A program made the translations under genes and the position numbers. The notes under the pieces are model-generated. The model had not been told where the DNA came from, did no database searches, and saw nothing but the letters and a program-made list of their open reading frames with translations. From NCBI GenBank assembly GCA_947184155.2, contig CAMXCT020000468.1, positions 183,565-247,564 on the forward strand: 64,000 nt of DNA, in the 5' to 3' direction. Of this stretch, positions 10,109-45,273 are shown in pieces. Position 1 is the stretch's first letter; every line of letters starts with the position of its first letter. This DNA is from Cladocopium goreaui. Lineage: Eukaryota; Sar; Dinophyceae; Suessiales; Symbiodiniaceae.

Positions 10109-10857
10109 CTGCCACGTCTTTGGACAGATAACCCGTAAAGTTGAAAGGGGGAACCCAAACCAAATTTAACAAAAAAGGAGAGAGAGACGGGGGAAAAGAG
10201 GGGGACAAAGAAGAGGAGGAGGGCAAACAAAAACGGAGGGGATCAATGAAAGGAACAGGGTGAGGTGAGTAGGTGACAATGCACCTGTCACGTCTTTGGA
10301 CAGACACACTGTGAAGCCAACAAAGATAACAGCAGAAAAAGAACAGTGAAAGATAGCAATGGAGCAATCCGAAAACAGGCAAAGACGTGCAGAAAAGAGC
10401 AGAAAACAACCAAAAAGCAGAATGTGAGTGATCTGAACCTGAGTGGGGGGGAGACAGAGCACCTGCCACGTCTTTGGACAGATACACTGTGCAATTAAAA
10501 GTGAAAAGTAATCACGAAATAGATCAAAGATAAAAGAGCGGATCCACGAAAAATGGAAAAAATTGTACCTTAGTAGAGCAGGCAGGGATGAAACAGTGAC
10601 CTGTCACGTCTTTGGACAGACACACTGTGTAAAAGCAGCGAAAATCGAGAAAGAGAAACAGTGCACCTGTCACGTCTTTGGACAGACACACAGTTAGAAT
10701 GAATCACTAAAAAGAGATGCGAAGGGGTTGTGTAAGGTGCCTGTCACGTCTTTGGACAGACACACAAGACACAAATCAAAAAGGGCCTTAGTAAGATTAA
10801 ATCACTCGAAAGAGATGCGGAGGGGTTGCGCGAGGTGCCTGTCACGTCTTTGGACAG
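10109..10857 (-). promoter_or_regulatory. LINE copy A leader: seven covarying hairpins in pyrimidine-rich sequence
   Basis: Seven hairpins at 10109-10127, 10285-10303, 10463-10481, 10601-10619, 10667-10685, 10741-10759 and 10839-10857. Each has inner stem CTGTC/GACAG (CTGCC at 10109 and 10463) around the loop ACGTCTTTG on the plus strand. Most also have an outer stem: ACAGTG/CACTGT at 10601, AACAGTG/CACAGTT at 10667 and TTGTGT/ACACAA at 10741. In gene sense the segments between hairpins are rich in C and T, mainly next to ORF1. The tandem arrangement recalls promoter monomers in the 5' UTR of mammalian L1, but the function here is unknown. Confidence 0.7.
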
Positions 10858-11206
10858 ACACACAAGCCACAAATCAAAAAGGACCTTAGGTAGTTAAGCA
10901 CGAAGCGAGTCACTAAGTGAACAAATAACTAAACAACGATTTAGGGGTGGCACAGCAGACAGAGAAGGGGTATCTCTGAAGCTGGGCAGTATCAAGAAAG
11001 AAACCAAAAGGTCACAGAGACGAATTTCAATCTTAACACCTTCACAAAAAACCAGGGTTTTCACTCACGGCAGGGAGGATCGAGCACGGCACCTTTAGAC
11101 ACCCCAGTGCAAAGGAACCCCCTACAACCCGATCTGCTACACCTGCAGCTGGCACTCACCCCCACTACTTGTGAGTGTGGCTACCAACTGTTTGAACCGA
11201 GAGGGG

Positions 11207-11226
11207 CTTGAGCCAAAGGGCTACGG
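11207..11226 (-). other. Spliced-leader relic at the 5' tip of LINE copy A
   Basis: Minus strand reads CCGTAGCCCTTTGGCTCAAG. This is the dinoflagellate spliced leader (CCGTAGCCATTTTGGCTCAAG) with AT replaced by C, so one base shorter. Copy B has an equivalent relic at its 5' tip, followed in both copies by related sequence ending in CGGTTCAA. Sequence upstream of the relics is unrelated between copies. The element's RNA was therefore probably trans-spliced, or begins with an SL copy, and was reverse transcribed to its end. Confidence 0.75.
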
Positions 11227-13900
11227 AGCATCCAGAAACCACCTTGACTGTCACGCAAGCTCTCAGAAAATTTGGCAAAGCAGAAGTAGCTGTATAGCAC
11301 AGCTGGTGCCCATTGCCATTCTCATTGTCAATGTTATCCTGTAATGGTCAGCGTAGTTGGAATCCTGTCTCTGGAGTAAGATACTGCCGCAATAGCGATG
11401 TGACTCAATACCCCCCTCAAGGGGGGGTAGGTATTGACAGCCTGTAGGTCATGCAAGACTATAACTGTAACTCATCACAGATGCCGTCATACCGTAGGAA
11501 GCCAAGAGGACCTGGAAAGGTGCCAATGGTACACGAATTCCGCAAAAAACTGATTCCCTCCGTAAGGTCATTGCAGATGAATAAGATAAACTCGTGCAGA
11601 GGGTAGGCTCAAGCAAAGAAAGATTGCTACTAGCGACCTGTACACAATTGCGCCGCTCTCGCATGGCAGTCGTGCTCAAGCCACAAACTTGAAAGGGTGA
11701 CTCGGTTCGCTGTACCAGCACCAGATTGACTAGCAGGATTCACTTTTTTTTTCCCCCGGTTTGGCCGATTCGCACTAGGCACGGTCCTTACACTTGCGTA
11801 AGCGGTGAAAAGCAGTAATGTAGAGGACACGTGTGGTCCAAAAACTCTGGCAAATCATCACTAGGAACAAAACAAACAAAACAAAACGACAACCAAAAAC
11901 GACCCGCAAATCCCCCAGCCAGATTTGCGTTTCGCCACAAAGCAAAACAGCGAAGCAACAAAGAAAGGGGCAGGGCCCAACAAAAACCAAACCAAAAAAC
12001 TTGAGATTTGCCTTGGATACAGTGACCTAAGCCACTGTATCATCCTCAAAAACATGCAAACTAATTAATTGCGGCAGTGCATGGAGTATAGTACACGATC
12101 GCCCCGACTGTCTTGCCTGAGAAAAGAGAATCCAGTATTGCAGGCAGACTGATGTGTAGCACGACAAAGGCCGCCTGTATGGACGTCTTGTCAATATAGC
12201 AACTTCGCATCGCTGCTGTTCACCCTGTATCGTCAGCGTATGCACGGCAGCCTGTTCCTGTCAATATGCACCACCGCAAGGGATTGTAATCTATTTCCCC
12301 CCCTAGGTGGGGAGGAGAGCACTGACAGCCTGCAAAATGGTGTGAGCACTCGCAGGAACCGTCATATTGCAATGGGCCCAAGACCCTAAGGCCGTGGGTA
12401 AAAAGGTGGCTAAAGGCCTGACCGGCACAATACGGCCATGACAGACAGATGAAGCTTCCGACCATAGCATGGGCTCGTGAGCACTTCCAGTATGATACTG
12501 CCGCTATGTATGCAAAAGTCGCATTCGCATTGCTGTCAAACTCGTTCCCCTAAACTATGAAGGTTGAAGTGGTTCACTGCGCCAGCACCAGATTCTCAAA
12601 CAGGAGTCACTAGGCGTCATCGTCCCAGCAAGTCCTGCGGAGAGGACCAGATGCACCGTACGTTAGCTGTGTATTCCAGACCAGGCCACTCTCCCACCGA
12701 GTGGGCCATTGCCAGGGCATTACAGAACATCCGCACAACGAACCATGTGGGCAGGCTTTGCTGCACTCGGGCGCTCCAGACTGAACTGCAGGAAGCACAA
12801 CTGGACAGCGCCAGTAGAGCTCACTGCAGTGCAGCCTAGTCCATGGCTCTACCGGGAATCTACCGCCCCTCTCGGAAAAAACGCAGAAACAACACAGAGC
12901 GAGAAGGGCCCTTCCCAATACAGCCAAAGAAAAAGCCACATGACTCAAACAAACCTAACACAAAACGAATTCAAAGGGGGAACAAGGAGAGGGGGGGACG
13001 GTGAACCAAAAACTGCCCCACCTCGGACGAATCCTTAGTCACTACCAGATGAGACCAATGTAGCTATGGTGAAACGACAGAGCTATTATGCAGAGCGGTA
13101 ACCTCGGTATCCAGGCAATAGATGAAGCAATCAGCACAAAACCAACCAACAGAAACCTGCCATCATGGGGGGAAGCAGAAAGGGGGGAGCGGCCAAAGCA
13201 CAACACACACAACACCACAAGCCACACAGAAGAAGCGAGGAGAGGAGCCAGGAGGCAGCAGAGGACAGAGTGAGAAAGGACACACACGCACCAGAAGGGG
13301 TACGAACGTGCCTTAGCGGAGTCCAAAAAGGGGCCAAGGATCATACGATGATGAATACCTCAGTGAGGGAGCACACTGCACCCCAAATACACAGGAAGCA
13401 TGGTGTAGAGGGAAAGATCCCCACACAGGGCCAAAGGCCTTTGTTGCCATGAGACACAATGAAGAGGGGAGACAATGCGCAACAAACACTCCACGCACAG
13501 AGGCAAGGCAACCAGGCCGTCGCCGGAAGCAACGATACCCAGAGGGAGGGACCAGTAAAACCTGGGCCAAGGCGCCAAAGAGGACCATCCGAGGGGGGAG
13601 GGAGGGCCACGTCAGGCAGGGAACAGGCAACAAAAACAGAACCAAAAAACAAGGCACCAACACCTAATGTAGCTCTGCTAAGGGCAAAACCTAGGGATGA
13701 GTCAACGAATTCAGATACCTTAACTAGTGGGAAGGGTGGGAGAGTGGGTGTCTCGTCAATACTAAGTCTGGGGATAATAACAACAGTTTCATTACCCATC
13801 GATGATTGTCAGGCAGAGGCTGCGAGAGCGTGCGCGCGTGCAATAGGCTTCATGGTGGAGGCGACCTTAGTATAATCTAAGCTCTTGACTGGACAGCACA
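11227..13900. other. Non-coding spacer with diverged internal duplications
   Basis: No supportable gene. Short open frames here are low-complexity and unlike the genes around them. Two segments resemble each other: 11705-11750 and 12572-12612 share GCCAGCACCAGATT-type sequence followed by AGGA(T/G)TCACT. The stretches near 11395-11450 and 12290-12340 both have a short C/G palindrome followed by GACAGCCTG. A-rich, pyrimidine-poor stretches occur at 11850-12000 and 12880-13660. This may be decayed transposon sequence. Confidence 0.4.
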
Positions 13901-13904
13901 TTCT

Positions 13905-14031: not shown

Positions 14032-14093
14032 CATGATGAACCTGACAATTATAAATGAGGAAGAGCTGTGTCCCCTACTGCATACCAGTGCAC

Positions 14094-14112
14094 CTGTCAC
14101 GTCTTTGGACAG
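14094..14112 (-). promoter_or_regulatory. Isolated covarying hairpin
   Basis: Inner stem CTGTC/GACAG with the ACGTCTTTG loop. The outer stem is unusually good: CATACC/GGTATG (14080-14085 with 14118-14123) plus GTG/CAC. Unlike the other hairpins it has no convincing minus-strand ORF just downstream. It lies 210 bp past the end of the helicase gene and close to the LINE-leader fragment at 13905-14031. Confidence 0.6.
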
Positions 14113-14323
14113 ACACACCGGTATGGACAGTAACCTTAAGTAGAAGTGACGAAAGGACCAAATAGATATTTAAGGCAACTCCCACCACCATTGTTGATGA
14201 AACAAAAGCCAAATACTGTGTGAGGGACAATGCGGAGTGAAACAGAAATGAGAAAAAGAGGAAGGGGGAGAAGGGGTGGACACAGAAAGGGTAAAAGTGA
14301 TGCGAAAAGGGGTGAGCTGGGGA

Positions 14324-17300
14324 TTATGTCATACCTCTCGCGAAATGTTCCAAATAATGCTTTTTATCCGATGTAATAGTGTCGTTCCATTCGTTGGTGA
14401 GTCCAAACGAAACTGGGTTCACTCCTTGCTGAGCAATAGCACGCTGATGAAGCGCTCGGATCGCCCTTTGATGTTCGTCCAGATCTTCCGGAGGGACTCT
14501 CCTGCGGACTTTCCTGTCTGGGAAGTTTCGTTCCCGCAGGTTGGTTTGCAAGGCATGTCCCGCTACATAAACTGCAGGTTGCTGGAATAAAACACGCTCT
14601 GCAAATCTGTGGAGATGCACTGTCCACTCAGCAAACATATGGCTGTGTGACAGTTGATTCCTGAGTCGCGCTTCCGTTTGATGAAGGCTCCCATTGGTAT
14701 GCCACAATCGCAAAAGACTGTAGTTGGAAGGCCAATCAAGGGGGCACAGTGTGGCTGTTTCTTTCCACTTTTCAGGTGTAAGCCCTGCTTGAGAGGGTAT
14801 GATCACTTCCAGAGTAGTACGATTCGGTCCCAGTGGTTGGAGACCTCGCATCATGGATGGTTCAACGAGCCCTGTGGTATATCCATGGATGAGCTCCTGG
14901 AAACATCCAGCCATTTGAAAGTCTTCATCCAATCCAAGGCGAAAACCAGGCATGTTTTTGGCAGCAAATTTAACTGCCTGGAGCAGCTGCTTTGCTCCCT
15001 CCACTGGAGTCTCGTCACAGGAACGTTTCGGGCACGTGATGTTAATTTCTTGTGGTTTCTGCGCATTCTCAGGAGCATTCTCGAGAAGTTTGGGAGCAAT
15101 TTTGCTGGCCCAGCTAGCCGGGAACCATGCCAGTAGGGCAGAGGCACCACTCGTAAGGTCCACTAACCCAGTAGTGCGTCGATGCGGCCGATCTGTGACC
15201 AGGACTTTAACTGGGCCACTCGGCGCTCGACTCCGATTCACCTCAGAGCTCTCTCGGGCCGAGCCAATGAGTTCAGACAGGATGGGCCGAAACCAGTAAG
15301 TGGCATACAACAGGCATTCAGTTTCTGGAGTCACCATGGATTCAGCCAATCTCATCAACGAGCTCATCGCCTGGGCGAGCTTCTCTGCCAATCGAATTGT
15401 GAGAGCCCTTGCCGTCTGCAGGAGGACATCCTCCACACTGGCAATTTGCCCGCGCAACCACAGTTCACAGGCCACACTAAGCAAGGTGCGCGCAAACTTT
15501 TCTTGGATGGCAGTCAAAGACAACGTCAATCTCGCCTGTAGCCACAGCGGCGGGAGAATTCCAAGGTTTTCGGGTATGCAAAAAGGGTTTCCGTTAGGTT
15601 GGACATTAGTAATCAGGATTGCTAGCTTGTCAGCTGCACTCACAATCTCGTCTTCAGAGGGATCTTCAGCTGCATCAGGTATGGGTGGGCACCACGCAAC
15701 TGTAGGGTCCTCTGGATCACTCTCGTCATCGGTAGAGGCTGCTTCCTCATCCGAGGAGGGGTCATTCACTGTGTCTCCTGCACCCTCGGGGCTTGCGAGT
15801 TTCATAGACCCTGGATCAAATTGGCGATCCAATGTGGCCAAGAGGTCCGGTTGCAACCGATGAGCATCGAAGTAATGGATACCCGGGATTACGACGAGTT
15901 GTCGATCCTGTATACCCACGTGAAAGAAGACCTTGTGGCCTCTATGTCGATGAACAAGTGCTGGGGACTCATTATAGGCTGCACATAGCCAGAGAGGAGA
16001 TCTGTAACCATCAGCAGCATAACCATACAAGTATTCACGATCAATCGAGCAGGGGAAAAACCCGCTGGTCGTCAGCACATGGTCACGTGTGCGGGACTCT
16101 AGCGCTGCAAGGACATCAGGGGGAAGACGTAGCTTGTCTTTGCATGCCACAACCAGCCGATATCGTCTCCACGCTCGCGTGCCATTGATGGTCACTATCA
16201 TGGCAATAGCAAGAGGGGGTTTGTCTTGGGGAATAAAAGGTGCCCCTAATCCCCAGTCCAGTATGGCAATTTTGTCGCTCGGGTAGGTTGTGGGGCCATG
16301 GTACTGGATCTCCCTACCTTTGAGCGTGAAGTACCCATAGTGGTACACCCCTAATGTCTGTGCCATCCCAATCATGCCTGCCATGTCGAGAGGCGAGACA
16401 ATATAGGTATGTTCAATGGCTCTTGTGAGCGCTACAGTTGCTCTTCCATAGCAGTCCTCACGCTCGTCTGCTGTTGCATCCCTACGTCCTCCACTGAGAA
16501 ACCCGACACCTGTTTGAACAATGACCGCAATGCGTGCTGTCGCCCCTGCAGCAGAGGAAGTGGTGGAAACTCTCAGCCCGCCATACCACGCTGACTGAAA
16601 GCCATGTTGGAGTAGCAAGTTGTGCACCGCCGTACGGTTGCATAAGACAAGCAGCTGCGAGGTCGCTCCCTGTTGCAAGTTGCGATAATAATTCTTCAGG
16701 TAGGTGCAGAAGGCAACCACATCCTCAACAGCTGCTCGTAGATCTTTAGGTGCATTCCACAGTACTGTACGGAAACCTCCTTGTGCCACAGTGGACTCAT
16801 GTGGCACGAAGTGTCCAATGTAGATGTGATTGGGCTCATGGAGGACTAACTCAGGATATCGAACTGCAACGATAGCTTGGTAGGTCAGCATTGAGACCCG
16901 CGAGCTGTTAGGGAGAATGATACCCCACCGGTGAGGACCACATAGCCCGGCTGCTTCAAGGGTTGTGGTGCACTCAGGTACCCCAAATTCCTCTGGTGCT
17001 GTGGCAATCAATAGGACTGCTAGAGCTGCTGCAATTAGGCTGCTGTGTGCATCCAGCTGGCACGATATGCGGCAGTGAAACACACGCCCCAGAGCGGTAG
17101 GCAGCTCGTAGTCTTGCGGAGTGGATGTCCATGGGCCACTATGCGACTTGTTTGCAAGTCTCAGCAGATTAAAGAGATCAGACTCCGGATCTTGGCTCGC
17201 ATCAGGCCAAAGCTGAGCTACAAGGGCTGCCATTCGTGCCGGCGGAAGATAGTCTCCTGGCTTATCAAGCGCTCGGAGCCCTAACGGCCGTTTCAACAGT

Positions 17301-17431
17301 TTGCGTCGATTGACAGCCGCTGCTCGGCCTTTGGACAGCCCTCCTGGAGTTTGCCTGTGATCTCCAATGAAGACAGTAAGGGTTGGTTGTTGAATGGCAG
17401 CGAGAGCTGCAATCTCATGGTAATTGCCATA
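14324..17431 (-). CDS. SF1 helicase, C-terminal part (after an in-frame stop)
   Basis: Same reading frame as the 17432-21763 part, separated only by one TAG codon at 17432-17434. The first ATG after it is at 17296 (990 codons), but the 45 codons before that are open and contain GDHRQTPGG, the helicase motif III (GDxxQ) expected just after the DESQ box. From the ATG at 17296, residues 281-300 contain CYGRATVALTRA, the motif VI of UPF1/DNA2-like superfamily 1 helicases. An acidic stretch lies near residues 515-560. The remaining ~430 residues are unrecognised. With the upstream part it forms a protein of ~2480 codons. If TAG is not read through or edited, the helicase core is cut in half. Confidence 0.75.
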   Translation of the reverse strand, partial: YGNYHEIAALAAIQQPTLTVFIGDHRQTPGGLSKGRAAAVNRRKLLKRPLGLRALDKPGDYLPPARMAALVAQLWPDASQDPESDLFNLLRLANKSHSGPWTSTPQDYELPTALGRVFHCRISCQLDAHSSLIAAALAVLLIATAPEEFGVPECTTTLEAAGLCGPHRWGIILPNSSRVSMLTYQAIVAVRYPELVLHEPNHIYIGHFVPHESTVAQGGFRTVLWNAPKDLRAAVEDVVAFCTYLKNYYRNLQQGATSQLLVLCNRTAVHNLLLQHGFQSAWYGGLRVSTTSSAAGATARIAVIVQTGVGFLSGGRRDATADEREDCYGRATVALTRAIEHTYIVSPLDMAGMIGMAQTLGVYHYGYFTLKGREIQYHGPTTYPSDKIAILDWGLGAPFIPQDKPPLAIAMIVTINGTRAWRRYRLVVACKDKLRLPPDVLAALESRTRDHVLTTSGFFPCSIDREYLYGYAADGYRSPLWLCAAYNESPALVHRHRGHKVFFHVGIQDRQLVVIPGIHYFDAHRLQPDLLATLDRQFDPGSMKLASPEGAGDTVNDPSSDEEAASTDDESDPEDPTVAWCPPIPDAAEDPSEDEIVSAADKLAILITNVQPNGNPFCIPENLGILPPLWLQARLTLSLTAIQEKFARTLLSVACELWLRGQIASVEDVLLQTARALTIRLAEKLAQAMSSLMRLAESMVTPETECLLYATYWFRPILSELIGSARESSEVNRSRAPSGPVKVLVTDRPHRRTTGLVDLTSGASALLAWFPASWASKIAPKLLENAPENAQKPQEINITCPKRSCDETPVEGAKQLLQAVKFAAKNMPGFRLGLDEDFQMAGCFQELIHGYTTGLVEPSMMRGLQPLGPNRTTLEVIIPSQAGLTPEKWKETATLCPLDWPSNYSLLRLWHTNGSLHQTEARLRNQLSHSHMFAEWTVHLHRFAERVLFQQPAVYVAGHALQTNLRERNFPDRKVRRRVPPEDLDEHQRAIRALHQRAIAQQGVNPVSFGLTNEWNDTITSDKKHYLEHFARGMT

Positions 17432-20400
17432 CTATTGACTTTCGTCCATGAAAGCAAGCCAGGTGCGAGAGATCCAATGGCCAAAAGTGGAATAGCGCAT
17501 TGCCATTTCCGCCGTGGCTGAGCCACCTGTTGCAATGAGTACATTCTTGTGAGCGATGATTCTATTACGGTCACTGCATCGGACGTCAATTTTGGAGGCA
17601 TATGCTTCTCCTTTACCTTCCTCCATGCGACCAATTAGCCTACCGAAGCTCCTGATTGTGGGGGGCGCGAGATCACTTAATTGATCCGCAAGTGCTTTGG
17701 CAGCTACATTTTCTTTCGTATAGATGATCGCAACAAAGTCCTTGAGTTCGCAGCTCAGGGCAATGAGCAAGACCGCAAGGGACCGCGTTTTGCCAGCACC
17801 AAAGACCCCTGCAATACATAAGTCAGATCTTCCTGTCAGAATGGCCAGCAACAGTGCAATTGAGACTGTCAAGACATGTCCATCACCGTGGGCTGCTAGA
17901 GGAAGGAGATGCTCACGGTAGTAACTGTCATGGGCCCCATCCATCGAGATCGTGGCTGGTGTCAAAAACCGGCTCAAGATTCTGACTAATGCATCAGTCA
18001 GCTGCGTTTTGCGCTCGCTGGCCATACGGCGAACAGGTATATGCGGCTGCACGATGCCCATTGCCAATGGTAGGCGCGACTGGTTAGCTTGTGCAAACAC
18101 TAAGAGTTCATGGCGGCTGCGTGTGTCTCCCAGAAAGGCTAGCTCCTCCCACACTACGGCCATGGACACGTGGTCTTCGATGGGTTTCGGCCAGTCCTGT
18201 GCAGGATCAAAGTAACTCATTGTTTTGAGATACTGGTCCAAAAGTCGCCCACAAAAGGTCCGAGCAATGGGTAGCGAGACGATAACAAGCTCCAGCAACT
18301 TCGGGGCAATGCGCTTGAGCGCTCGCTGAGCAGGGTTCTTGCTGGTTCCGCTCGGCATCACTTTTTCATGTACCAGTAATATGACACACCGCTGCTGAGT
18401 GTCTGGCAACTGGAGTACTCCCAGTAGTGCTCTGCCCGCCATCACGTTGGCTTCCAAGTTGCCTAGATTCCCAGCTTCACAGAGAGCACGCGGCGAGGTC
18501 ATTGGAACATCCGAAGGTGCACTAAAGAGCAGGAGCGGGGCACCGTCAGTATGTAGGTGAATGACATGAAAACCAGCATACGCCTCATATTGGTAGGTGA
18601 CCTGTAACCGTGTTCCCGTTTGTCCTCGCTTCTTCTGCTGAGCTAGTTCTACACTGACCCAGGGCTGGAGATGTTGGAGCTGCCGTCCCGCATGATAAGC
18701 GTCTAGTTGCGGAAGCACCATGTCCAGTAGGAAGATGAGGGTACGTAATGAAAAACCACGCAGGAATTCCGCCAGTAAGTTGCGAACCAGCAACCCTCCC
18801 TCATCATGGGATCCTCCCGGTGTGGGAATCATCGCAATCAGAGCTGCTTGTAGTTCAGCTTCCGTATCAGGCTGACCATCCCGAATGTCCCGTCCGACAA
18901 TGGGTACTGTTTGTAGCTCAGTGTTCCCCTCTCCTGCTGCTACTAACAGAGCACTTAGAGTCGTCTTGAGGTGTTCAGGAAGGTCAAAGCTAACCCATGA
19001 AAGTACACGCAGCAATCCCTCGCACTGTAACCCATGTGGAATGACTTGAGGGGTGGTGATTTGTAATCTTTGGACTTCATGGACCCCTTCATCAAGGTCA
19101 ATGAAGAGCAAGTGGCCATAGGAGTGTTTGGCACGCCCACTCCATGTGGGGTGCCCTTCTATAAGAACAACCTGATAATTGAATTCTGTCAGAGAGTCAG
19201 GTTTCCACACACATAGCCGGTCCTCCAGGCAGTGCACCAGTGTGACTCTGCGTTCGCCAGTGGCAAGTCGCATCATCTCTGGCGGCGTCGCAATCGCAGC
19301 AACTTTGGTGAGGCCAGGGAACGCAGCAAATTCACTCAGGATCTCGTGGACTGCAAGGCCCGTATAGGACCCTGCCGAGAACCCATAAACGTTGATGTCC
19401 CTGACACCTCCTGTATCCGCTGTAGTGACTAAGTGTGGAAAACATGACTTCAGAAATAGATGTTTACCTTGCGGATGGTAGCAACGAAAGATCTGCATAA
19501 TTGCTGTTGACCAGGTCGGGTGTGGTGGCCTGGCATGGGCTGGCCGGATATTCGCGGCCTCAATGAGGCGAATCGCTCTCGTGAGCAGCAGTTGTTGATC
19601 GGAGAACTGTTCAGGGAGGAAATCTCGCCAAGCTGTCCATCCTTCTGCAGTGGAGAGTAGCTGGTATACCGCATATTCGTGCACTGTTTTGGTGAGGCCC
19701 AATTGGGTGACATGTGCTTCCCAATCATCTGTCATCGCAAGCGATGGGCCATACACCTTTGTTTGCGCAAGATTTTGCAGGAAAATATCATAGTCGTGTT
19801 CGCCACTAAGTAGGCCACCCCCTAATCCACTGCAATGCACTTCAAGGGGTCGGTCTTGCATTGGGGCGTCATCTTGCCAGACTTCTGAGAGGGAAAGGAC
19901 CCAGGAGGCCCACTCGGCAGAGCCTTTGAGCGCTACGGGCAGCGCAGCTTCAGGTTGTCTTCCAATGTAGTTTTGTTTGGACACCTCTCCAACATCTATG
20001 GCCTGCTCATTGACAGTGACTTCCCACTTAGCCATCTCTCTGAAAGGTAACGGAAGACCAAAATTTAGGAGAGCTGCTTGCTGCAGCGATGTACATGAGG
20101 GTTCCGATTGTTCCTTCCGTTGCCACAGTCCACACAGCAAAATTAGTTGAGCTTGGGAGAGAGGAGGAGGAGGCACTTTGGCATGCAGTCGCAGACCAAC
20201 CACTGGAAGGAAATTGTGATGCAGCCATTGGGGCTTCCATTCTTGTGTACCAAATAAAGCCGCGGCCAGCGGCAACCAGCCGAATTGGGCAAGGTCAGCG
20301 AGACTGCTAGGCATTCTTTTCTTGGCATTGGTGCCAAACCCATGCAGAATAGCAGGCCGCATGTAATGTGGCTCGATTGCCATGGCTTGGTACATCTTGT

Positions 20401-21763: not shown

Positions 21764-21899
21764 TTGATAGATTCAGCCCGTACTCAGTCGAAATGCTCTT
21801 GTGCTGTTCAAGTGCGTAGAGCAAGTCAAAGAAGCTGATGGCAGGGTTCTTTGCGTACCAGGACTTCACAACTTGTTCCCTGGAAAGCAGAGACATCAC
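21570..21899 (-). CDS. Probable true N-terminus of the helicase protein, in a shifted frame
   Basis: 109 codons beginning MMSLLSREQ and overlapping the start of the 1443-codon frame by ~190 nt in another frame. It starts 73 nt after the nearest leader hairpin (21972-21990), the usual distance in this cluster, and its residue composition looks protein-like until about residue 70. A one-base indel near 21700 would join it to the main frame. It could instead be a separate short upstream ORF. No domain recognised. Confidence 0.45.
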   Translation of the reverse strand: MMSLLSREQVVKSWYAKNPAISFFDLLYALEQHKSISTEYGLNLSIEQHWRFGDPHKKTAAPDRHDYEIAMVNGSETLPGPDWHKLYRWLVSQSSAFLPYHTAFGDGQS

Positions 21900-21971
21900 A
21901 CTGTGCAGTTCCTGTGTAGCTAATTTGGGTGTAAAAGTTATAAAGGGGGAGGGTGGGAGGTGTTGAGAATC

Positions 21972-22491: not shown

Positions 22492-22755
22492 AAAAACCAG
22501 AAGCCAAATGGAAAGGAGAGAAAGGAGTCAGGTGAAAAGAGATAACGCAATGAGGGGCACTATCGTGGAATAAGGTCCCAATGCACGAAAGATCAAGGTG
22601 TAATCTGTTGTATGACAAAACAAGACTGTAGTAATACCCTTCGCCCAATCACCGGAAAGGTTTGTTATATCGATCCCTCACCGAGGTAAGGAGGCACTAT
22701 ATATTTCCCGTTTCTGGAACTAAGCTGAGGCAGCAGGTCTGTCTACTGCTGTACT

Positions 22756-37696: not shown

Positions 37697-37714
37697 TATT
37701 TCGAGTGAAAGAGT

Positions 37715-40700
37715 TCAATTTGCTCCCTCCGTTGGGGCTTCTCCAAGTGCGAAAAGCAGCCTGCTCCACTCCTCCGTACTTGCAGAGATAAGATATTCTC
37801 CTGATGGGTCCAGTGTATGGGATTGTATGAGTCGAGTTCCAAGTTGCCTGGGCATTCGTCGCATGGACGATGACTGCGTATACCACATTGGTGACCATAC
37901 GACAGGGGTGGCAACTTTGTACGCAACAAAGGACTCAGAGTCTGCAATAGCTCGAACTTGGTGATTGTCAACCACATGTATGGCGATCCATTGTGGAATG
38001 GCACCACTAACATCTCGTGCTAATACACCTATAATACTTAAGCCGCCTGTGCCATCAAGGCCACCAAGTAAATGAATGACAGTGCTAGCGGGCGAGGCAT
38101 TGTGCATAAAGCACTGCGGGGCACCAAGCGTGTGCAAGTAACACAAAGCACAGAAAGGGCACTGTAAAGCCGCAAATTCACTCAGATGTATATAGTGTTG
38201 TCCATCATCAATTCGAGCAAGTATCGGGTAAGTCGCAAATGTATGATAGGAAACTTGCACCACATCAGCAAATATCTTTGGCATGTTGGCATGAATAAGA
38301 AGATCTTTACTTTGACGATAGTCAAAGGCGACCGTTCCAAAGCGAAACGGTTGATCAGGCTCATGAGAAAGCAACAGGAATAACAGGCAAGGTCGCTGCA
38401 CCCCAACATAGATAAGGGGAGGTTGCATAATTTTCGGTGCCCAAATGATAAAACCGTAGGGAAATTGGTGCTTTACACTAAGCGTTGCAATCTGGAAAAC
38501 AACAAAAAGTTGTTTGATAGCAGTAAGTTGTTCAGCATCAGTATATTCTTTCAACAGTCCAATATGCTTAGCTTTGATCTCTTGAGCTTCAGAATGAAAT
38601 CCAATACCATTTTTAACAGCCAAGTTCATCATGTATGCTGATAGGGGAACATTCTCATATGTGCTTGACGACTCTCGCACCCAATCAATCCTAGTTTGGG
38701 TCATGATGTTGCTCAACTCTTTATCACCAAAGGGGGGGTCGTTCTCACTGTGGGTTCCGTGACACTTTGGAGGTTTGGATCCTTGTAGAAACGCAAAGAC
38801 CGTCGGCTGGTGCACTACTGGGGGGCGAGCTGATTCGACACTATCATTAAGAGAGTAGTGCCGCCATTTCGCTTCAAAATCCACTTTGTCAGCTCTGAGT
38901 TGAACTCCTCGAGCGGCTGCTTGTTCCAATACCAGCTTCAGCAGGTCTTGGTATTTTGAATAAACTTCTTGGATACTCGGTAGGTCTTTACGGCACGGCT
39001 GCGCATCATTGTTTCCCTCAACCCACTGTTGTAATTGATCATCGGTACCGAGGGCCGCACTGATGAGAGATGGATGAAAACTATTTCCACAAAAGTCTCG
39101 AATCACTTTATCCGTGAGAAGGGAAGGCCCATGTCTTTCTGTCGTTAAGATATTCTCAAGTCCTGCTAATTTGCGTACTTCTTGGACCGTCAGGATTCTC
39201 ATTGGCAGTACAATATTTGGGTTATGAAAGATAGGCGCTAGTTGTTCGATGAGTTCGTCTTTTTTGGATGTAGTCGCTCTGTCTGTTTGAAGAGTGATAA
39301 GGAAACTTTTCCAAATAGGGAGAAAGTGAGCAGGAATGAAGCTTGCCCATGGCAGGTTTGGGACTCTATCTCCCTCAGCCATTTGGGTTAATAACATGAA
39401 AGATTTCCTCCCTCCAAAAAAGGAATAATCCCATAGAAGTGCACTGGGTTGGTAGCCTGTCCAGGAGAGCTTCAAGATTCCACTGCTTGACAGTCCTCTT
39501 GTTCGGAGTAATGGAGCCAATGGTAAGTTTTCGCCTTTCAGAGTCACTAATGGGCCCCATTCGTCGAGAAATGTGAGTGGAACAATAGTAAGTTCCTCTG
39601 TGTCCATGTGACTCCGTAGAAATACCCTTTTTCGCTGGATACCATAGTAGGGACTGGTGTCCCAAACCCACCGGTTGGTTGGTTGCTTACTAGGGAGTCC
39701 AAGACAGTATAGAAACATTTGAAAGTGTTCAGACTGCTCGAGGCGCTGCATAGCTTTAGGTTTGCGGTCAGTTTGTACAATTTGCATGCTTCCAGCATTC
39801 TCTGTTAAGTATCGAATCGATTCAGTTCCAAACAGCTTCTGAAGGTGCAGAATAACAAGGTAAACTACAAAGAAGAGCATACTTCGCTGACCTGTCAGCC
39901 CAAGCAATCCATTTAGATAGCCTGCATAAGTGAGATCTTGACAGGGAGATCCTGCGACAACAATCCACTTGATTGTAGGGTGCATTGCCTTGGCTTGACG
40001 AAGGATCAGAGAGTCACGGGCAACTAGCTCCCAGACATCTTTAACGTAGATGGTAGCAACCCCTTCAATCGTATATCCCCACTGTTGGTCTTCGCGCAGT
40101 CCTATTTCAGCAGCGACAAGCCGACGTAGGACAGGATCAATTTCTGCAGCGATGAAAATAGTAGGGGGTTTACCTAGTTTTTTCTTAATGATATGATAGA
40201 CAGATCCAACTCCATCAAACATCGAGATAACACCAATGTTGGCCAGCGTTCCATGTGCGATGATCCTAGGTAATCCTTCAGGGTCGATCTCTTCAACCAT
40301 ACCCTCATTCTTGCCATCTTTAGGGGGTCCATGTCTTGTCGCCTTCGCCTTCTTCTTGCTCGACTTGGTTTTAGCATTGTGCTTGCATGAAGGGTGAGAG
40401 AGCTGCGAGGTTCGTGTTCTTGTTTGCTTCCGAGGCGATTTGAGAAAGCCTTTGACAACCTTTAGTTGTCTTCTGCGATACTGCGCAACTTCACCCCCTC
40501 CTGCTGCTTCAGAAAGTTGCTTTGTCATTAGGATTGCTTTGGGTGATTTAACTGGCAGTATGACAAGCCCACTGATGAGGAGCTTCCCGCTGACAAGCTT
40601 GCTGTCCACAACTCGTATACCATTGTTATGGTCGTACATACTTATCATTCCAGGCTGACTAGTATGAAGGACTATGAGCTGGCTGTCAAAGTCAAGCCTA

Positions 40701-43700
40701 GTGGTGGCTATGAGGCACTGGATTTCGTACTCTCTTTCTTGGAACATAAATTTGTGCCCGAGTGGGAATCGTTCTTCCTCGAGCTTCGGAAAAGAACCTC
40801 CTGGAGGTGCTTTGATTCGAACGATGATCAAAGGGCCTAGTTTGCCACATTTCCACTTGGCTTTGGCAGCGTCTAGACATGGACAAGCTTGACATTCTGT
40901 CAATTCATCAGTATTCCAGATTGGAACTAACAGGTCACAAAGTTCATCGATACTTGTGTTAGGCTTGATTGTTGCTGTGAAGGTGTCAATTGGTATTGCG
41001 CTAGACCGTGAGCACGCCTGACATTGTAACACAAATCTCGAGAAGAGAAAACTACGAGTACTCTGACTAAGGTTTGCGCATACAATTGAATACAGGTCAT
41101 ACACAGCATCATTTTGTGTAGTACTGTTAGGGGGAATGGTACTGAGTGTAGCTAAGGACAGGCAGGCGTCAAAACATGTAAACGGAAAAACCGTGGGTAC
41201 TTGATGGACCCAGCTCCACCCTACACCTACTGCTGCAAGGGCTGCCTGTCGAACATGTATACTAACATGTGTTGGGATCCAAGGCCCTCTTGATAGGAGA
41301 TACAATGCAATATTCATGCTAGACATGTGACCACAGTGGATCGCAATGTCTTGGGCTTTGTTAGCTAGGGCTGCAATAATGGTAGCATCAAGAGTAGGGA
41401 ACCATTTTCGGCTAGATTCAGCGAACGGAGAAAGGGAGGCAAATCGAAGTTGCAGGGATTGACTTTGAGTCTCACGTTCAAAGGATGGCTGGGTGAGGTC
41501 AATTTGCTCGGTGTTGTCATCTTCCCCAGTGATATCAATGCACACACGCGTTTTGTCATTAGCCGGGAGGACAGAACTTCTTTTAAGGGCAGCCTGGATA
41601 GGGGGCAATGCTTCTCCTTGATGTAAGGAGGAAGCCTGGGACGACTTGGTCTTCACAGGGGCTGCGATGCCAGGGGGATCTTTAACGATTTCAACGACAA
41701 AAGAGTCATCAGGTAGCAATGGCTGCCTTTCTGGTAAGCAATCATTTCCAATAGGGGCCTTAGAGGCAGTATCTGGAGGCTGGCATTGACTTGGAGGTGT
41801 GAGCTCAATGGGGTCACTGTTATCAGATTTCGCATTGTCATCTTGTAAGGGAAAGGAGACACCGGGTAGGGAGGACGGAGTGATAATAGGGTCAGAAAGC
41901 TCGTTAGACAGTCTGCCTTTGCTTACAACCCCACCTTTCCCTTCTCCACAAGTAGATTTGTGCTCTTGTAAGCTAGTTTTCTGACTGCTAAGAGCTTCTC
42001 CTTCACATGTAGGAGGTTTTTTGAGGGGGGTGGAGAGATGTGCAGGTTGGGGAGGTAGCATTTCTTTATCTTCCTCCTCTATTTTGCGTATATTGTCTCC
42101 ATGATGGTCTTGATCAACAACCATGTCAGTAATTGGTTGCTCACTGGTGCCAGCTGGGTGACTAGCAGGTAGGTTAGTCCATGGGATGGTTGGGCTGACA
42201 GTAGGGGGGTCAGTGCGTGCATCACCAGGTGCTAAGTGCCCTTCTGGAACTTTACAAGTGCGCTGAGCACCTTTGAGTTCACCTTGACTGCTTAACCGCT
42301 CTGCATTTGACTTCACAGTGTCATGAACGCTTGCTCCAGCGACAGCGTCAGTGAGGGGGGGACTGTTTTGATAGGGGTTGACATGTTGGGAGGGCGGAGT
42401 TGGCGAGGGGGTGGTGCCTAACGCTGCGTAAGCCGGAAGCTGATCGATTTCTTTCTTGCTGCTGGGAGGGACAGACGGGGTCCTAGGCGGTTTAGCACAA
42501 TGGTCAGTTCGTTTGTCCTTCGTAAGCGGCTGGTGCTGTGGAGAGCTTGTAGAAGGCACCGTGGTAGTTTTTCTATTGGTACCACTGTTGTTGAATGTAC
42601 TAAATTTCCATGCAGCAATAGCTTCAACTTTGGTATCAGCAGTTAGCATGGCACTGAAGTCAAAGTGGGGAGGCACCAGCATGACAAGATAACAAGCTTT
42701 GAAAGGATATATTTGTAGAGCATCGACCTTAGTGAGGTATAATGAGCTTTCAAGGCCATCAACTCGGTTGATTTGACATTGCTTCCCTGACGGTATTTCA
42801 AACATCATAATTCTGGTAAATTTTGACACTTGCTCAAACCTAAGGAAGTTTTGCTTGCAGAAGTCTCCTTTCGCACTATTCACTGATTCAAAATGACTGA
42901 AATGTGTCAAAAAAGTATCTAGTGTATCTCTTTCAGGTATAAATTCAAGGAAGAGGATCCACGGGTAGGTCTCTTCAGAATACGTGTATGATACCTGTTG
43001 AGTTTGCAAGTCAACTGCTGAGTCCTTAAGAAGTCCGAACCGTCGCTTCTGTGAAGCATTCTGGGTGCTGACAGGGGCGATGACCGTGAGTCTGTTTTTG
43101 AAGCTTGGATTACACTTTTCGCCAATTCTGCGCCAATGCTCTCCTTTGGTTTCGTGCCTGGGTGGTTCACCCGGTGCACCAGTTTGTGGCAGTATGTTTC
43201 CACAATGTTCTATCGTGAAAACAATGCTGTTTCCTCTTCTGTCCTTGACTGAGAAAGAACATGGGAAATTCTGCTTAACTTCATGAGGGATCCAAAAGGT
43301 GAGCATATTGATATTGACATTGTCTTCATTAACAATTGTTTGAAATTCAAATTTCGAGGCTGAAAACGCATTAATAAGTGCGAAGCCGAGATCTGAGTCA
43401 ATGACTGCTACATCATTTTCCAGGAGTGGGATGATGCTACTTTTTGCAATTTGAAGTGGTATAAAGGGCATACTGCCTATTGGAGCATATCTTACTTCAA
43501 TACGGTACCAGTTGCTACCAATGGCAGTCACTTGACTAAGCACAAATTGTGTCGATTGCTGTCGTTGCCCAAAGGGCAGGTACGTTGTTGAACAATGCAA
43601 TAAATTGCGGAGCATTTCGATTTCCATGCCTTCTAATTTCAGCATTACTTGAGCTTTAGATAGAAAGAAGTACTTTATTCTAAAGGACATGAGCTCCAGC

Positions 43701-44014
43701 GCAAGAGCATTTCGTTCTTGATCACTTAAGTGCCGAGTGGACATGACAGTGAAAACAGCAGCCTCCCGCAGTTTGTGTAAACGAGTCCAGTCAATGCCTT
43801 CTTTGATCTGGAACTGGGTATCTTGTGCTGTGTTGATTTCCTTCTGTAATGATTCAATTGCTTCACGGATTTTGGTTCTTTGTAAGCACGAGTTCTTTTC
43901 ATATTTGATAGTAAGCGGCACGCTTCCTTTTGACTTGTCAGAATTATAGCAGCCGTTTGGTGACGTACTGGTTTCACTGACCCCTGGATATTGCCCTTGT
44001 CGCAGTTCTTTGCC
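37715..44014 (-). CDS. LINE ORF1 main part: USP-like domain and cytosine-5 DNA methyltransferase (copy B)
   Basis: 2068 codons from the first ATG (43921); homology with copy A shows the frame truly continues up to about 44014, where one base is missing. Layout from 43921: unknown region, Pro/Ser/Thr-rich stretch (~450-850), USP-like domain (~880-1140) with Ser in place of the catalytic Cys, a very basic linker, then methyltransferase from ~1225: FDGVGS, GSPCQDL with Cys1327, ENA, RKR, GNSFHP. The C-terminal ~440 residues are unrecognised. Copy B is the unbroken version through the point where copy A has two frameshifts, showing that the methyltransferase belongs to ORF1 and is not a separate gene. 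It ends 18 nt before ORF2. Confidence 0.85.
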   Translation of the reverse strand, partial: GKELRQGQYPGVSETSTSPNGCYNSDKSKGSVPLTIKYEKNSCLQRTKIREAIESLQKEINTAQDTQFQIKEGIDWTRLHKLREAAVFTVMSTRHLSDQERNALALELMSFRIKYFFLSKAQVMLKLEGMEIEMLRNLLHCSTTYLPFGQRQQSTQFVLSQVTAIGSNWYRIEVRYAPIGSMPFIPLQIAKSSIIPLLENDVAVIDSDLGFALINAFSASKFEFQTIVNEDNVNINMLTFWIPHEVKQNFPCSFSVKDRRGNSIVFTIEHCGNILPQTGAPGEPPRHETKGEHWRRIGEKCNPSFKNRLTVIAPVSTQNASQKRRFGLLKDSAVDLQTQQVSYTYSEETYPWILFLEFIPERDTLDTFLTHFSHFESVNSAKGDFCKQNFLRFEQVSKFTRIMMFEIPSGKQCQINRVDGLESSLYLTKVDALQIYPFKACYLVMLVPPHFDFSAMLTADTKVEAIAAWKFSTFNNSGTNRKTTTVPSTSSPQHQPLTKDKRTDHCAKPPRTPSVPPSSKKEIDQLPAYAALGTTPSPTPPSQHVNPYQNSPPLTDAVAGASVHDTVKSNAERLSSQGELKGAQRTCKVPEGHLAPGDARTDPPTVSPTIPWTNLPASHPAGTSEQPITDMVVDQDHHGDNIRKIEEEDKEMLPPQPAHLSTPLKKPPTCEGEALSSQKTSLQEHKSTCGEGKGGVVSKGRLSNELSDPIITPSSLPGVSFPLQDDNAKSDNSDPIELTPPSQCQPPDTASKAPIGNDCLPERQPLLPDDSFVVEIVKDPPGIAAPVKTKSSQASSLHQGEALPPIQAALKRSSVLPANDKTRVCIDITGEDDNTEQIDLTQPSFERETQSQSLQLRFASLSPFAESSRKWFPTLDATIIAALANKAQDIAIHCGHMSSMNIALYLLSRGPWIPTHVSIHVRQAALAAVGVGWSWVHQVPTVFPFTCFDACLSLATLSTIPPNSTTQNDAVYDLYSIVCANLSQSTRSFLFSRFVLQCQACSRSSAIPIDTFTATIKPNTSIDELCDLLVPIWNTDELTECQACPCLDAAKAKWKCGKLGPLIIVRIKAPPGGSFPKLEEERFPLGHKFMFQEREYEIQCLIATTRLDFDSQLIVLHTSQPGMISMYDHNNGIRVVDSKLVSGKLLISGLVILPVKSPKAILMTKQLSEAAGGGEVAQYRRRQLKVVKGFLKSPRKQTRTRTSQLSHPSCKHNAKTKSSKKKAKATRHGPPKDGKNEGMVEEIDPEGLPRIIAHGTLANIGVISMFDGVGSVYHIIKKKLGKPPTIFIAAEIDPVLRRLVAAEIGLREDQQWGYTIEGVATIYVKDVWELVARDSLILRQAKAMHPTIKWIVVAGSPCQDLTYAGYLNGLLGLTGQRSMLFFVVYLVILHLQKLFGTESIRYLTENAGSMQIVQTDRKPKAMQRLEQSEHFQMFLYCLGLPSKQPTNRWVWDTSPYYGIQRKRVFLRSHMDTEELTIVPLTFLDEWGPLVTLKGENLPLAPLLRTRGLSSSGILKLSWTGYQPSALLWDYSFFGGRKSFMLLTQMAEGDRVPNLPWASFIPAHFLPIWKSFLITLQTDRATTSKKDELIEQLAPIFHNPNIVLPMRILTVQEVRKLAGLENILTTERHGPSLLTDKVIRDFCGNSFHPSLISAALGTDDQLQQWVEGNNDAQPCRKDLPSIQEVYSKYQDLLKLVLEQAAARGVQLRADKVDFEAKWRHYSLNDSVESARPPVVHQPTVFAFLQGSKPPKCHGTHSENDPPFGDKELSNIMTQTRIDWVRESSSTYENVPLSAYMMNLAVKNGIGFHSEAQEIKAKHIGLLKEYTDAEQLTAIKQLFVVFQIATLSVKHQFPYGFIIWAPKIMQPPLIYVGVQRPCLLFLLLSHEPDQPFRFGTVAFDYRQSKDLLIHANMPKIFADVVQVSYHTFATYPILARIDDGQHYIHLSEFAALQCPFCALCYLHTLGAPQCFMHNASPASTVIHLLGGLDGTGGLSIIGVLARDVSGAIPQWIAIHVVDNHQVRAIADSESFVAYKVATPVVWSPMWYTQSSSMRRMPRQLGTRLIQSHTLDPSGEYLISASTEEWSRLLFALGEAPTEGAN

Positions 44015-44517
44015 ACAAAATTTTCAAAGGCAATACGAGCAGGCATAATCAGCTCATCAGATATCGTGTCAGAGATTTGCCATTCAATTACCGACGGACT
44101 GCTTGACAGACTATCCATTTTGACTAGATATAGTACTGTAGGATATTTTTGATATTTGAGGGTTCCAGTGAGCTGTTTTATTTCTCGGATGGCTGCCATA
44201 TGCCTATGGCAGGTGTCAAAGACTTTTGCTGCTATTTCCACTGGGCCAGTGTTGGCATGACACTCATAGATAAATATGACAGTCTGTTGCATCGTTGCCA
44301 GTGTTCTCATAGCACTTTGAGCAGCTCCAAAAGAGGGAAACGCATAAACAGTCGTCTCCTGCTTCGCTATCTGTGAATGCAGCTGATCATAGGTGGTCAA
44401 AAGTATGCCTTCAGGTGCTTTGATTTTGCTCGGAAAATGCACCATGAGAGTGGCATTCAATCCAAGTGCACCGAGACCTTCTGCAGCAGCCTGTTGAGCC
44501 TCGATGTGCTCAGACAT
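44015..44517 (-). CDS. LINE ORF1, N-terminal piece (copy B, cut by a one-base deletion)
   Basis: Starts at the ATG at 44517 (MSEHIEAQQAAAEGLG), as in copy A. After about 165 codons a one-base deletion near 44013-44020 (TGCCACAAAATT here, TGCCAACAAAGTT in copy A) moves it into another frame, which stays open to 43726 (263 codons in all). In copy A the frame runs through this point. The full ORF1 would be ~2267 codons. Confidence 0.8.
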
Positions 44518-44604
44518 TATGGCTTTGTCTTCTCAAAAGGAGAAGGTTGGTGTGTGAGAGGTATGACAGGTTACTCAGAGTATGATTGGGAAAGGGGGGA
44601 GTAC

Positions 44605-45273
44605 CTGCCACGTCTTTGGACAGATAAACCCGTAACGCTGGGAGAGAGAACCCAACAAATAAAAAGGGGAAGAGAGAAAGCAGTCTCTCCAATCGGTTCG
44701 CAAAAGAAGTAACTCAAAACAAAAAGAAGAAGGGGGGGGAGGAAAAAGAATCAACTAGGGCGTGAGTGGGGTAGGTAACAGAGCACCTGTCACGTCTTTG
44801 GACAGACACACTGTGAAAACAGAAGAAAGCAGCGGAAAACAGAAGGGGTCAAGCGAAAGATCAAAATAAGAAACAGAGCACCTGTCACGTCTTTGGACAG
44901 ACACACTGTGAAACCAGAAGAAAGCAGCGGAGAAAAGAAGGGGTCTTGCAAGAACAGAACAAGAAACAGAGCACCTGCCACGTCTTTGGACAGACACACT
45001 GTGAAAAGATTGTGGGAAGAAATCCTGAAAGTAAGCAACAATGACAAGATAGATCAGAGCAAACAAGTAAAAATGGACCTTGGTGGAGCAATGCAGAAAA
45101 AAGAACAGTGACCTGTCACGTCTTTGGACAGACACACTGTGTGAAAGCAAAAATTCACAGGGATAAAAAATAATAGTGCGCCTGTCTCGTCTTTGGACAG
45201 ACACCCAATGTAGAAGCAAAAAATTAAAAGGGGTGAGTGAAGGTTGCGGAATGCCTGTCACGTCTTTGGACAG
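44605..45273 (-). promoter_or_regulatory. LINE copy B leader: seven covarying hairpins
   Basis: Hairpins at 44605-44623, 44787-44805, 44882-44900, 44975-44993, 45113-45131, 45182-45200 (loop TCGTCTTTG) and 45255-45273. Inner stem CTGTC/GACAG, with CTGCC at 44605 and 44975. Outer stems include ACAGTG/CACTGT at 45113 and GTTGC-GG/CC-GCAAC at 45255. The number equals copy A but spacing and intervening sequence differ beyond the first ~120 nt from ORF1. Confidence 0.7.

Follow-up and report, generated by a model that had tools for sequence, protein, structure and literature searches.

The 64,000-nucleotide stretch of Cladocopium goreaui DNA analysed here (contig CAMXCT020000468.1; hereafter the window) carries a family of 24 hairpins with one fixed loop, which raises the question of whether these hairpins are kept by selection on a folded molecule, on which strand that molecule lies, and what it does ahead of the coding regions that follow.

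Distribution of the hairpin family

The coordinates given for the 24 hairpins in the initial annotation were exact, each marking the low end of the inner stem-loop. Seven hairpins stand in the leader of LINE copy A, where hairpin 1 (10099–10137) is nearest to the ORF and is followed in the array by hairpins 2 (10275–10313), 3 (10453–10491), 4 (10591–10629), 5 (10657–10695), 6 (10731–10769) and 7 (10829–10867), the sixth being a 98-nt tandem duplicate of the seventh. Hairpin 8 (14084–14122) is single and has a continuous 10-bp lower stem; hairpins 9 (21958–22005), 10 (22130–22177), 11 (22306–22352) and 12 (22459–22506) lie in the leader of element C; hairpins 13 (24098–24144), 14 (26145–26183), 15 (27911–27958), 16 (29394–29441) and 17 (30345–30383) each precede an ORF of their own; and the leader of LINE copy B holds hairpins 18 (44595–44633), 19 (44777–44815), 20 (44872–44910), 21 (44965–45003), 22 (45103–45141), 23 (45172–45210, loop CAAAGACGA) and 24 (45245–45283). 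A covariance model built from the 24 sites and searched across the window placed 24 of 24 on the minus strand, in the one orientation that had been claimed, with E values of 1e-16 to 2e-11. As the model comes from the same sites, its informative value is the gap to the next match (41.9 bits vs 12.6 bits, E 0.16). With filters off and E up to 5, the search returned the 24 members and nine others, the best of which was this 12.6-bit match, so that no more diverged members were found in the window, nor any hairpin between the ORFs inside the LINE. The window also contains no tRNAs.

The shared loop was observed on the plus strand as ACGTCTTTG at 20 of the 24 sites, and the remaining four carry close variants, with one mismatch at 26155 and 45182 and an 8-nt loop, AGTCTTTA, at 22320 and 24112. 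Read on the minus strand, the RNA loop is AAAGAC at all 24 sites. Taken alone, the 9-mer loop is found 28 times across the two strands of the window when one mismatch is allowed, against 13.75 ± 3.46 expected; whole hairpin units, by the E values above, are far beyond chance.

Neither place nor orientation is random with respect to genes, for besides the common strand, eight of the nine groups have a start codon no more than 230 nt away. The nearest hairpin stands 87 nt before the ATG at 44517 (hairpin 18), ~131 nt before 30223 (hairpin 17), 34 nt before 29373 (hairpin 16), 116 nt before 27808 (hairpin 15), 227 nt before 25927 (hairpin 14) and 31 nt before 24080 (hairpin 13), and 98 and ~75 nt upstream in the other two groups. 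In the ninth group (14094) a convincing ORF is lacking over that distance, the one that follows, at 13341–13799, being doubtful. The hairpins stand upstream of ATGs and outside the ORFs read here; upstream ATGs occur in some leaders.

Fold, covariation and probable acting strand

On the minus strand, the predicted fold consists of the hexaloop AAAGAC closed by a C-G pair with a bulged U (C-AAAGAC-G-U), an inner stem CNGNC/GNCNG of five pairs, three of them fixed, a nearly invariant U·G pair beneath this stem, and a site-specific lower stem. In one class of hairpins, namely 9, 10, 11, 12, 13, 15 and 16, the lower stem contains a bulged pyrimidine together with a pyrimidine-rich 2x2 internal loop, with an 8-nt loop in hairpins 11 and 13. 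The bulged base is C in six and T in one of the seven sites compared. The single bulged base attributed earlier to several hairpins is therefore real, although restricted to this class and to the site at 45255 (hairpin 24), where a C is bulged in the lower stem.

The pairing arms were found to change together. The covariation score was 0.457 against 0.179 in shuffled alignments (0 of 500 shuffles reach it), with 85.7% of cells paired vs 70.7% after shuffling, for 24 sites (23 distinct) that are not independent cases, since 14 of them lie in the 7 + 7 arrays of the two LINE copies, one homologous array pair. Slid registers, all six, scored at most 0.194. Pairs changed on both sides numbered 9 of 15, a bare count equalled by 41 of 500 shuffles. 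The two-sided compensation proposed initially is thus upheld by the score, and so is the statement that outer stems differ by site yet still pair: among 15 hand-picked representatives, arms with their own partners scored a mean of 16.5 vs 11.5 ± 0.7 when swapped (0 of 20,000 permutations), although for several arms (44605, 45182, 10109 and others) the own partner is no better than many other partners. In the bulged class, 93.5% of cells are paired over seven sites and both sides have changed in 13 of 18 pairs, and pairing falls to 82.3% when the bulge is paired through. With compensatory change above the controls, the sequence comparison supports the hairpin as a structured RNA element that is probably under selection.

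A probable strand can also be assigned. The compensating series described for the inner stem holds in that the stems are re-paired, but six of the 24 (10109, 10463, 44605, 44975, 22144 and 24112) have an A-C mismatch on the plus strand and are fully paired, via G-U, on the minus strand only. At every one of the 24 sites the minus strand is predicted to fold more stably than the plus strand (mean -18.5 vs -14.4 kcal/mol), with a different optimum fold predicted at 44787, and these energies, together with the plus-strand mismatches, disfavour the plus strand as the acting fold. Over 24 sites and 14 pairs, the minus strand shows 58 G-U against 3 A-C. This excess is partly compositional, as 15 representatives have 31 G-U vs 3 A-C where random pairing of outer-arm bases expects 24.0 vs 8.1; without the fixed column, 17 G-U remain against 3 A-C. 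Selection on folded "RNA or DNA", as first worded, is consequently supported for the folded form and narrowed to minus-strand RNA, and the most plausible folding molecule is an RNA with the same sense as the downstream ORFs.

Matches to the pattern CNGNCCAAAGACGTGNCNGG elsewhere, comprising 12 viral stretches and at least 117 prokaryote stretches (~120 being expected by chance in 257 billion bases, an estimate for the prokaryote set), were rejected as members: both variable pairs are complementary in 18 of 129, and their outer arms score 7–16 (mean 12.0), near the chance level of 11–11.5 and unlike the 16.5 in the window.

Genes that follow the hairpins

All coding regions behind the hairpins are on the minus strand. 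LINE copy A (3210–10010) comprises ORF1 (6042–10010) and a cytosine-methyltransferase-like ORF (3210–6002), whereas in LINE copy B (31631–44517) ORF1 and the methyltransferase-like region lie in frame pieces and are followed by ORF2 with a reverse transcriptase (RVT_1, PF00078, E 1.1e-9; R2 reverse transcriptase chains, E 1.6e-4 to 1.1e-3). The methyltransferase-like assignment rests in copy A on PF00145 at E 0.038, below cut-off, and on a GSPCQ motif seen by eye; the region has no Pfam match in copy B and no PDB match. Between the two copies, one leader block shows changed sites at 1 of 76 core positions, 11 of 78 arm positions and 62 of 166 spacer positions (37%), and one ORF gives pS 0.144 and pN 0.022. 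The intergenic regions have 166 10-mers in common, mostly array homology among the 80 matches listed.

Element C (14324–21896) has an extended coding region split into three frame pieces, in which helicase-like motifs are seen by eye and which Pfam leaves unnamed. Hairpins 13 to 17 are followed by an ankyrin-repeat ORF of a large gene family (22962–24080); an ORF of a large family without known domain (24764–25927); an ORF of a further large family with no known domain above cut-off (27062–27808); a frame-broken region (28563–29373), whose piece 28563–29039 is a distant paralogue of the 24764–25927 family (hhalign 94.3%, E 1e-7); and a putative 127-aa ORF (29840–30223). AlphaFold models of two ORF families are of low confidence (pLDDT 59.7 and 40.8), and no viral contigs with relatives of two ORF families or of LINE ORF2 were found. 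The ORFs are members of large gene families or of a LINE-Dnmt-like element, and look like genes of dinoflagellate mobile elements.

Hairpin 13 can also be recognised in translated form among database relatives of the 24080 gene. Among the 120 clusters listed, 28 read through it: in 25 the reading lies upstream of the ATG, and 24 of these preserve WLKTV, the translated core, amid variable neighbouring residues; three more show the hairpin in another frame. These relatives display the hairpin as protein only, a form in which pairing is not visible. They are open in frame across hairpin 13, and the evidence on the 24080 start codon points both ways.

Known systems and candidate roles

No Rfam 15 family reached its gathering score in the whole window, and none matched up to E 5 in 10050–10950 (one array only); with a limited literature search, this agrees with the earlier view that no element of such form is known to have been described. 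Among protein-bound mRNA hairpins, the iron-responsive element has a hexaloop CAGUGN, a five-pair stem and a bulged C on the 5' side, a plan akin to one hairpin class here; it was set aside, as the loop is AAAGAC in 24 of 24, there is an extra internal loop and Rfam gives no match. In nematode operons, an intercistronic stem-loop and the Ur element serve SL2 trans-splicing, and that stem-loop, like the hairpins here with their candidate acceptors, separates genes of one strand and precedes the splice acceptor, although no loop sequence of this kind is known to us there. Passages on non-trans-spliced C. elegans mRNAs (PMC9984361) describe 5' terminal hairpins where trans-splicing is the rule, akin to the present case, but those arise from each mRNA's local self-complementarity, while the loop and inner stem are common here. 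Introners of Amoebophrya, according to passages of PMC7789003, are likewise dinoflagellate repeated elements with hairpins, yet their inverted repeats join intron ends within genes, unlike the compact, fixed-loop hairpins upstream of ORFs. SymbioLINE-Dnmt of Symbiodinium (PMC5890265) has, as here, a LINE-type reverse transcriptase in ORF2, and its upstream ORF holds a cytosine-methyltransferase-like region, for which the present locus offers a tentative counterpart; the words "hairpin" and "untranslated" occur 0 times in the main text of that paper, and its passages on the element, in contrast to the present locus, contain no leader hairpin array.

A compact element with strong covariation is common here to retroelement and non-retroelement genes; to our knowledge, few cis-acting RNA elements are known in dinoflagellates. 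A review describes dinoflagellate gene control as mostly post-transcriptional and translational (PMC12787238). Judged from sequence, the hairpins are tentatively proposed, with nearly balanced confidence, to act in cis as RNA recognition elements within the 5' leaders of RNAs transcribed from the SymbioLINE-Dnmt-like retroelement and from linked, widely repeated genes. A fixed loop with re-matched stems just before apparent mobile-element genes suggests that a single factor recognises their transcripts. On this view the leader with its hairpins would be part of the transcript, and a single trans-acting protein, encoded by the element or by the host, would recognise the AAAGAC loop, using the stem as a handle. 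Bound RNAs would thereby share one fate, in which a dedicated factor most likely takes charge of the element RNA for RNP assembly, coupled to translation. The repeated hairpins (7, 7 and 4) ahead of the longest coding units may raise occupancy. We infer that the step served is RNP assembly, translation or trans-splicing.

Other roles were weighed against this recognition element. It is conceivable, though somewhat unlikely, that the hairpin sits in an outron and, with a pyrimidine tract and AG, guides the addition of a spliced leader, by which a long same-strand transcript would be divided into mRNAs. Trans-splicing of SL RNA to mRNAs occurs in dinoflagellates, according to passages of PMC12787238, the genes are on one strand, and three of the gene families seem to occur together on contigs elsewhere. 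By eye, a pyrimidine-rich stretch and AG lie between several nearest hairpins and the ATG (CTTCTTTTTACAG for the 24080 gene; a long tract ending CTTCAG for the 25927 gene), but 27925 and 29408 have poor tracts, and the 54–92% pyrimidine in the 48 nt downstream of the 24 sites is almost equalled by upstream flanks (48–90%). Spliced-leader-like stretches are weakly in excess (7 vs 3.3 expected, reached in 2 of 100 shuffles), yet the best differs at 2 of 15 positions, and all seven fall outside the intervals from nearest hairpin to ATG. Leader removal before copying would, moreover, cost retrotransposed LINEs the array, and both copies, if they arose by retrotransposition, keep seven. Control or recruitment of ribosomes by hairpins retained in the mature 5' UTR, needing no factor dedicated to the element, fits stable stems placed 31–227 nt before ATGs; it is nevertheless improbable, as seven stable tandem hairpins would be expected to hinder scanning, some leaders contain upstream ATGs and the strictly fixed loop speaks for a specific reader.

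Self-cleaving ribozymes stand at the 5' ends of some LINEs, and a ribozyme trimming element RNA would suit the position at the head of retroelements and the compact, conserved fold. The absence of Rfam matches over the ranges given above argues against it, and the conserved letters form the terminal loop and one stem while internal loops vary, a pattern unlike the small ribozymes known to us, which makes this role very improbable. Equally improbable is an element acting as DNA (promoter, protein-binding site or cruciform), or the plain spread of repeats: tandem duplication does multiply the units, and the initial contrast with simple repeat spread holds for the compensation but overlooks that the LINE arrays also multiplied in this way; against both stand the re-pairing of site-specific arms, G-U present with A-C rare on one strand (in part compositional), and cores kept while spacers diverged.

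Beyond the recognition element itself, a wider and rather doubtful reading takes the 14–45 kb stretch as one giant multigene mobile element (LINE-Dnmt and at least five further transcription units), in which one hairpin type would punctuate a long same-strand transcript and one loop-reading factor would govern how every unit is processed and used, as an RNA punctuation code. Were a single factor to read all hairpins, it would provide a common handle on mobile elements with methyltransferase-like genes.

Hairpin structure, covariation and folding strand

A covariance model built from 38–39-nt stretches of the 24 sites, with which both strands of the window were scanned with filters off, recovered the same 24 sites at 57.1 to 41.9 bits, the best non-member reaching 12.6 bits (E 0.16). 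All 24 hairpins of the initial annotation (10109..45273, each named by its low-end coordinate) are present at their positions, and all 24 lie on the minus strand, in agreement with the single orientation reported. Twenty sites carry the plus-strand loop ACGTCTTTG, two differ from it by a single mismatch and two have an 8-nt loop. On the minus strand the unit is arranged as lower stem, U, CNGNC, loop (C AAAGAC G U), GNCNG, G and lower stem, in which the fourth inner pair is U-A at 12 sites, A-U at five, U·G at four, G·U at two and G-C at one, and beneath the inner stem comes a pair that is U·G in all sites but one, 23 of the 24, where the exception has C-G. The bulged base holds for a class of seven sites (21972, 22144, 22320, 22473, 24112, 27925 and 29408), where it is always a pyrimidine, six sites having C and one T. 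In addition to a 2x2 internal loop, this class has a second lower stem.

Covariation was assessed on 15 pairs in the 24 sites (23 distinct), with 500 shuffles and slid registers as controls. Paired cells amounted to 85.7% vs 70.7% after shuffling (0/500), cells with two-sided change to 56 vs 20.5 (0/500), and pairs with two-sided change to 9 vs 7.5, with 41/500 shuffles reaching 9. The covariation score was 0.457, compared with 0.179 for shuffled alignments (0/500) and 0.087–0.194 for slid registers, a control that tilts in favour of the structures because these were partly derived from the same sequences. For the seven-site bulged class, 93.5% of cells were paired, two-sided change affected 13 of the 18 pairs (1/500 shuffles) and the score was 0.725 vs 0.275 shuffled (0/500); with the bulge paired through, these values were 82.3% paired and a score of 0.579. 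The arm-swap test, which is alignment-independent and free of that tilt, gave a mean own-partner pairing of 16.5 vs 11.5 with arms of other sites for 15 hand-picked representatives (0/20,000 permutations) and 15.4 vs 11.4 for all 24 sites. No stranger arm scored as well at 5/24 sites, and many array sites, including 10109, 44605 and 45182, do not stand out individually. The two-sided compensation proposed for the stems is upheld by both the covariation score and the arm swap.

The long ORFs of the first 45 kb (1–45 kb) are also on the minus strand. Six G·U inner pairs of this strand are A·C mismatches on the plus strand, and over 14 pair positions in 24 sites the minus strand has 58 G·U vs 3 A·C; in the 15 representatives the counts are 31 vs 3, or 17 vs 3 with the fixed column left out. 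Base composition accounts for part of this excess, since random pairing of outer-arm bases in the 15 representatives predicts 24.0 G·U and 8.1 A·C. The predicted folding energy is lower for the minus strand at 24/24 sites, with a different fold preferred at 44787.

Position of the hairpins and the units behind them

Eight of the nine hairpin groups lie within 230 nt before a start codon, and together with the single strand this is not the random placement relative to genes that the initial annotation had named as contrary evidence. The nearest hairpin is 98 nt from the start codon of LINE copy A (ORFs 3210..10010), 87 nt from that of LINE copy B (31631..44517), about 131 nt for ORF 30223, 34 nt for ORF 29373, 116 nt for ORF 27808, 227 nt for ORF 25927, 31 nt for ORF 24080 and about 75 nt from the first frame piece (21896) of element C (14324..21896); the sole ORF following the ninth group, 14094, is unconvincing. 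The chance of such a position is 2% per site under random placement and strand, giving P about 3e-13 for eight of nine groups, with groups and the 230-nt limit picked after seeing the data. No hairpin between ORFs inside a LINE was detected in the covariance-model scan of the window. Among relatives with an alignable N-terminus, the same methionine is used in 20/31 for ORF 27808 (longer 7, shorter 4), 20/22 for ORF 25927 (shorter 2) and 27/57 for ORF 24080 (longer 28, shorter 2), and the 28 longer relatives make the start codon of the last less clear-cut. They arise because the upstream frame is open in many copies, as in the window, where it is open to 24266 with no ATG in that stretch. Hairpins 27925 and 29408 are 90% alike over 42 nt, yet precede genes of different families, and the gene behind hairpin 26155 (24764–25927) has a distant paralogue in the frame-broken region after 29408 (28563–29373, minus strand); therefore the hairpins are not simply tied to gene family.

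ORF2 of copy B encodes a reverse transcriptase (PF00078, E 1.1e-9) that also matches R2 reverse transcriptases. The LINE resembles SymbioLINE-Dnmt, as outlined in PMC5890265, in having a methyltransferase-like region upstream of the reverse transcriptase ORF, although the cytosine-methyltransferase match is weak here (Pfam E 0.038 in copy A, no Pfam match in copy B). The type of element, and perhaps the 1.75-kb tandem array described below, points to a dinoflagellate source. A weak RNase H match (RVT_3, E 0.023) follows the reverse transcriptase in ORF2 (31631–37696, minus strand), where a SET-type-like stretch was also seen by eye.

The families of 24764–25927, 27062–27808 and 22962–24080 comprise 65, 38 and 167 homologous clusters (the best 120 of the 167 examined), with 353, 244 and 235 member sequences in the largest, sizes that are database-wide and do not give copies per genome. 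Contigs above 5 kb of exactly equal size recur between families 9, 5 and 1 times in the clusters among the matches listed, where jittered lengths predict 0.04, 0.02 and 0.01, so the three families (22962–27838) probably share contigs. With contig identity judged by size, they are probably linked components of an old element or cluster of several genes. Together, the three large families of the minus-strand segment 22962–27838 hint at a multigene mobile element that is so far undescribed.

Conservation of the hairpins in other copies

Copies A (1–10158) and B (34506–44655) are 95% identical, with pS 0.144 and pN 0.022 in the methyltransferase-like ORF. In the one leader block compared, containing four hairpins (10440–10770 vs 44955–45285), differences affect 1/76 positions in the cores (loop and inner stem), 11/78 in the arms and 62/166 in the spacers; the cores have therefore stayed nearly unchanged amid diverging sequence. 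As spacer divergence exceeds the synonymous level, exchange of leaders between subfamilies may have contributed as well.

A segment of the type ISARPL-WLKTV-RVAS precedes the ATG in 25 of 120 clusters of the ORF 24080 family among the matches listed, all close relatives (72–93% identical to the query over the aligned part). WLKTV, which spans the core of hairpin 24112 (window sequence CTGGCTAAAGACTGTC), is unchanged in 24/25, the flanking residues vary (such as SVGSF and QAPHQ), and the segment lies seven or eight residues from the ATG. Clusters P0105, P0136 and P0222 carry the same stretch in another reading frame (EASLAKDCQGCL). Other copies have therefore retained the hairpin at this position, which strengthens the case for its conservation as judged at the protein level, where pairing is not visible. 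Some copies possibly translate this stretch, although the two reading frames and variable spacer length argue against a function as protein. Among the matches listed, the remaining 92 clusters are without it and uninformative, because their predicted proteins, as a rule, end short of the upstream region. Six peptide patterns revealed no equivalent segment in the 25927 and 27808 families.

Possible role and other repeats

Sequence comparison shows that selection maintains the hairpin fold of the coding strand, at the head of mobile or widely repeated genes. The leader containing them would be transcribed and its loop read by a protein, serving the handling of element RNA, putatively RNP assembly coupled to translation. 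This role is favoured because both LINE copies retain arrays; if A and B arose by retrotransposition, the hairpins were within the copied RNA. The main rival is a trans-splicing acceptor module, favoured by the pyrimidine tracts and AGs downstream of several hairpins, but the upstream flanks are nearly as pyrimidine-rich, and a spliced-leader scan returned seven weak matches vs 3.3 expected (2/100 shuffles reach seven). Protein-read leader hairpins are a known kind. No Rfam family matches the hairpins, and no element of this form was found in the searched literature, most subscription papers lying outside the search; what is new is one shared covarying hairpin at the head of retroelement and non-retroelement units alike.

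Other repeats were also observed. In the plus-strand region 50300–64000 a 1.75-kb unit is repeated head to tail about eight times, with segments 61–100% alike, six ORFs without Pfam family matches and no hairpins in the covariance-model scan. An identical short stretch, CTATCGGCTCAAA, was noticed by eye in two intergenic regions (22755–22767 and 29545–29557, minus strand). A 51-nt tandem repeat of about seven copies (45798–46172) precedes the LINE B leader array by some 500 nt. Part of element C (17936–19765, minus strand) recurs as an inverted copy, 93–96% identical, at 48080–49935 (plus strand), adjoined by an imperfect palindrome of about 1 kb (46272–47272) that is 77% identical to its own reverse complement.
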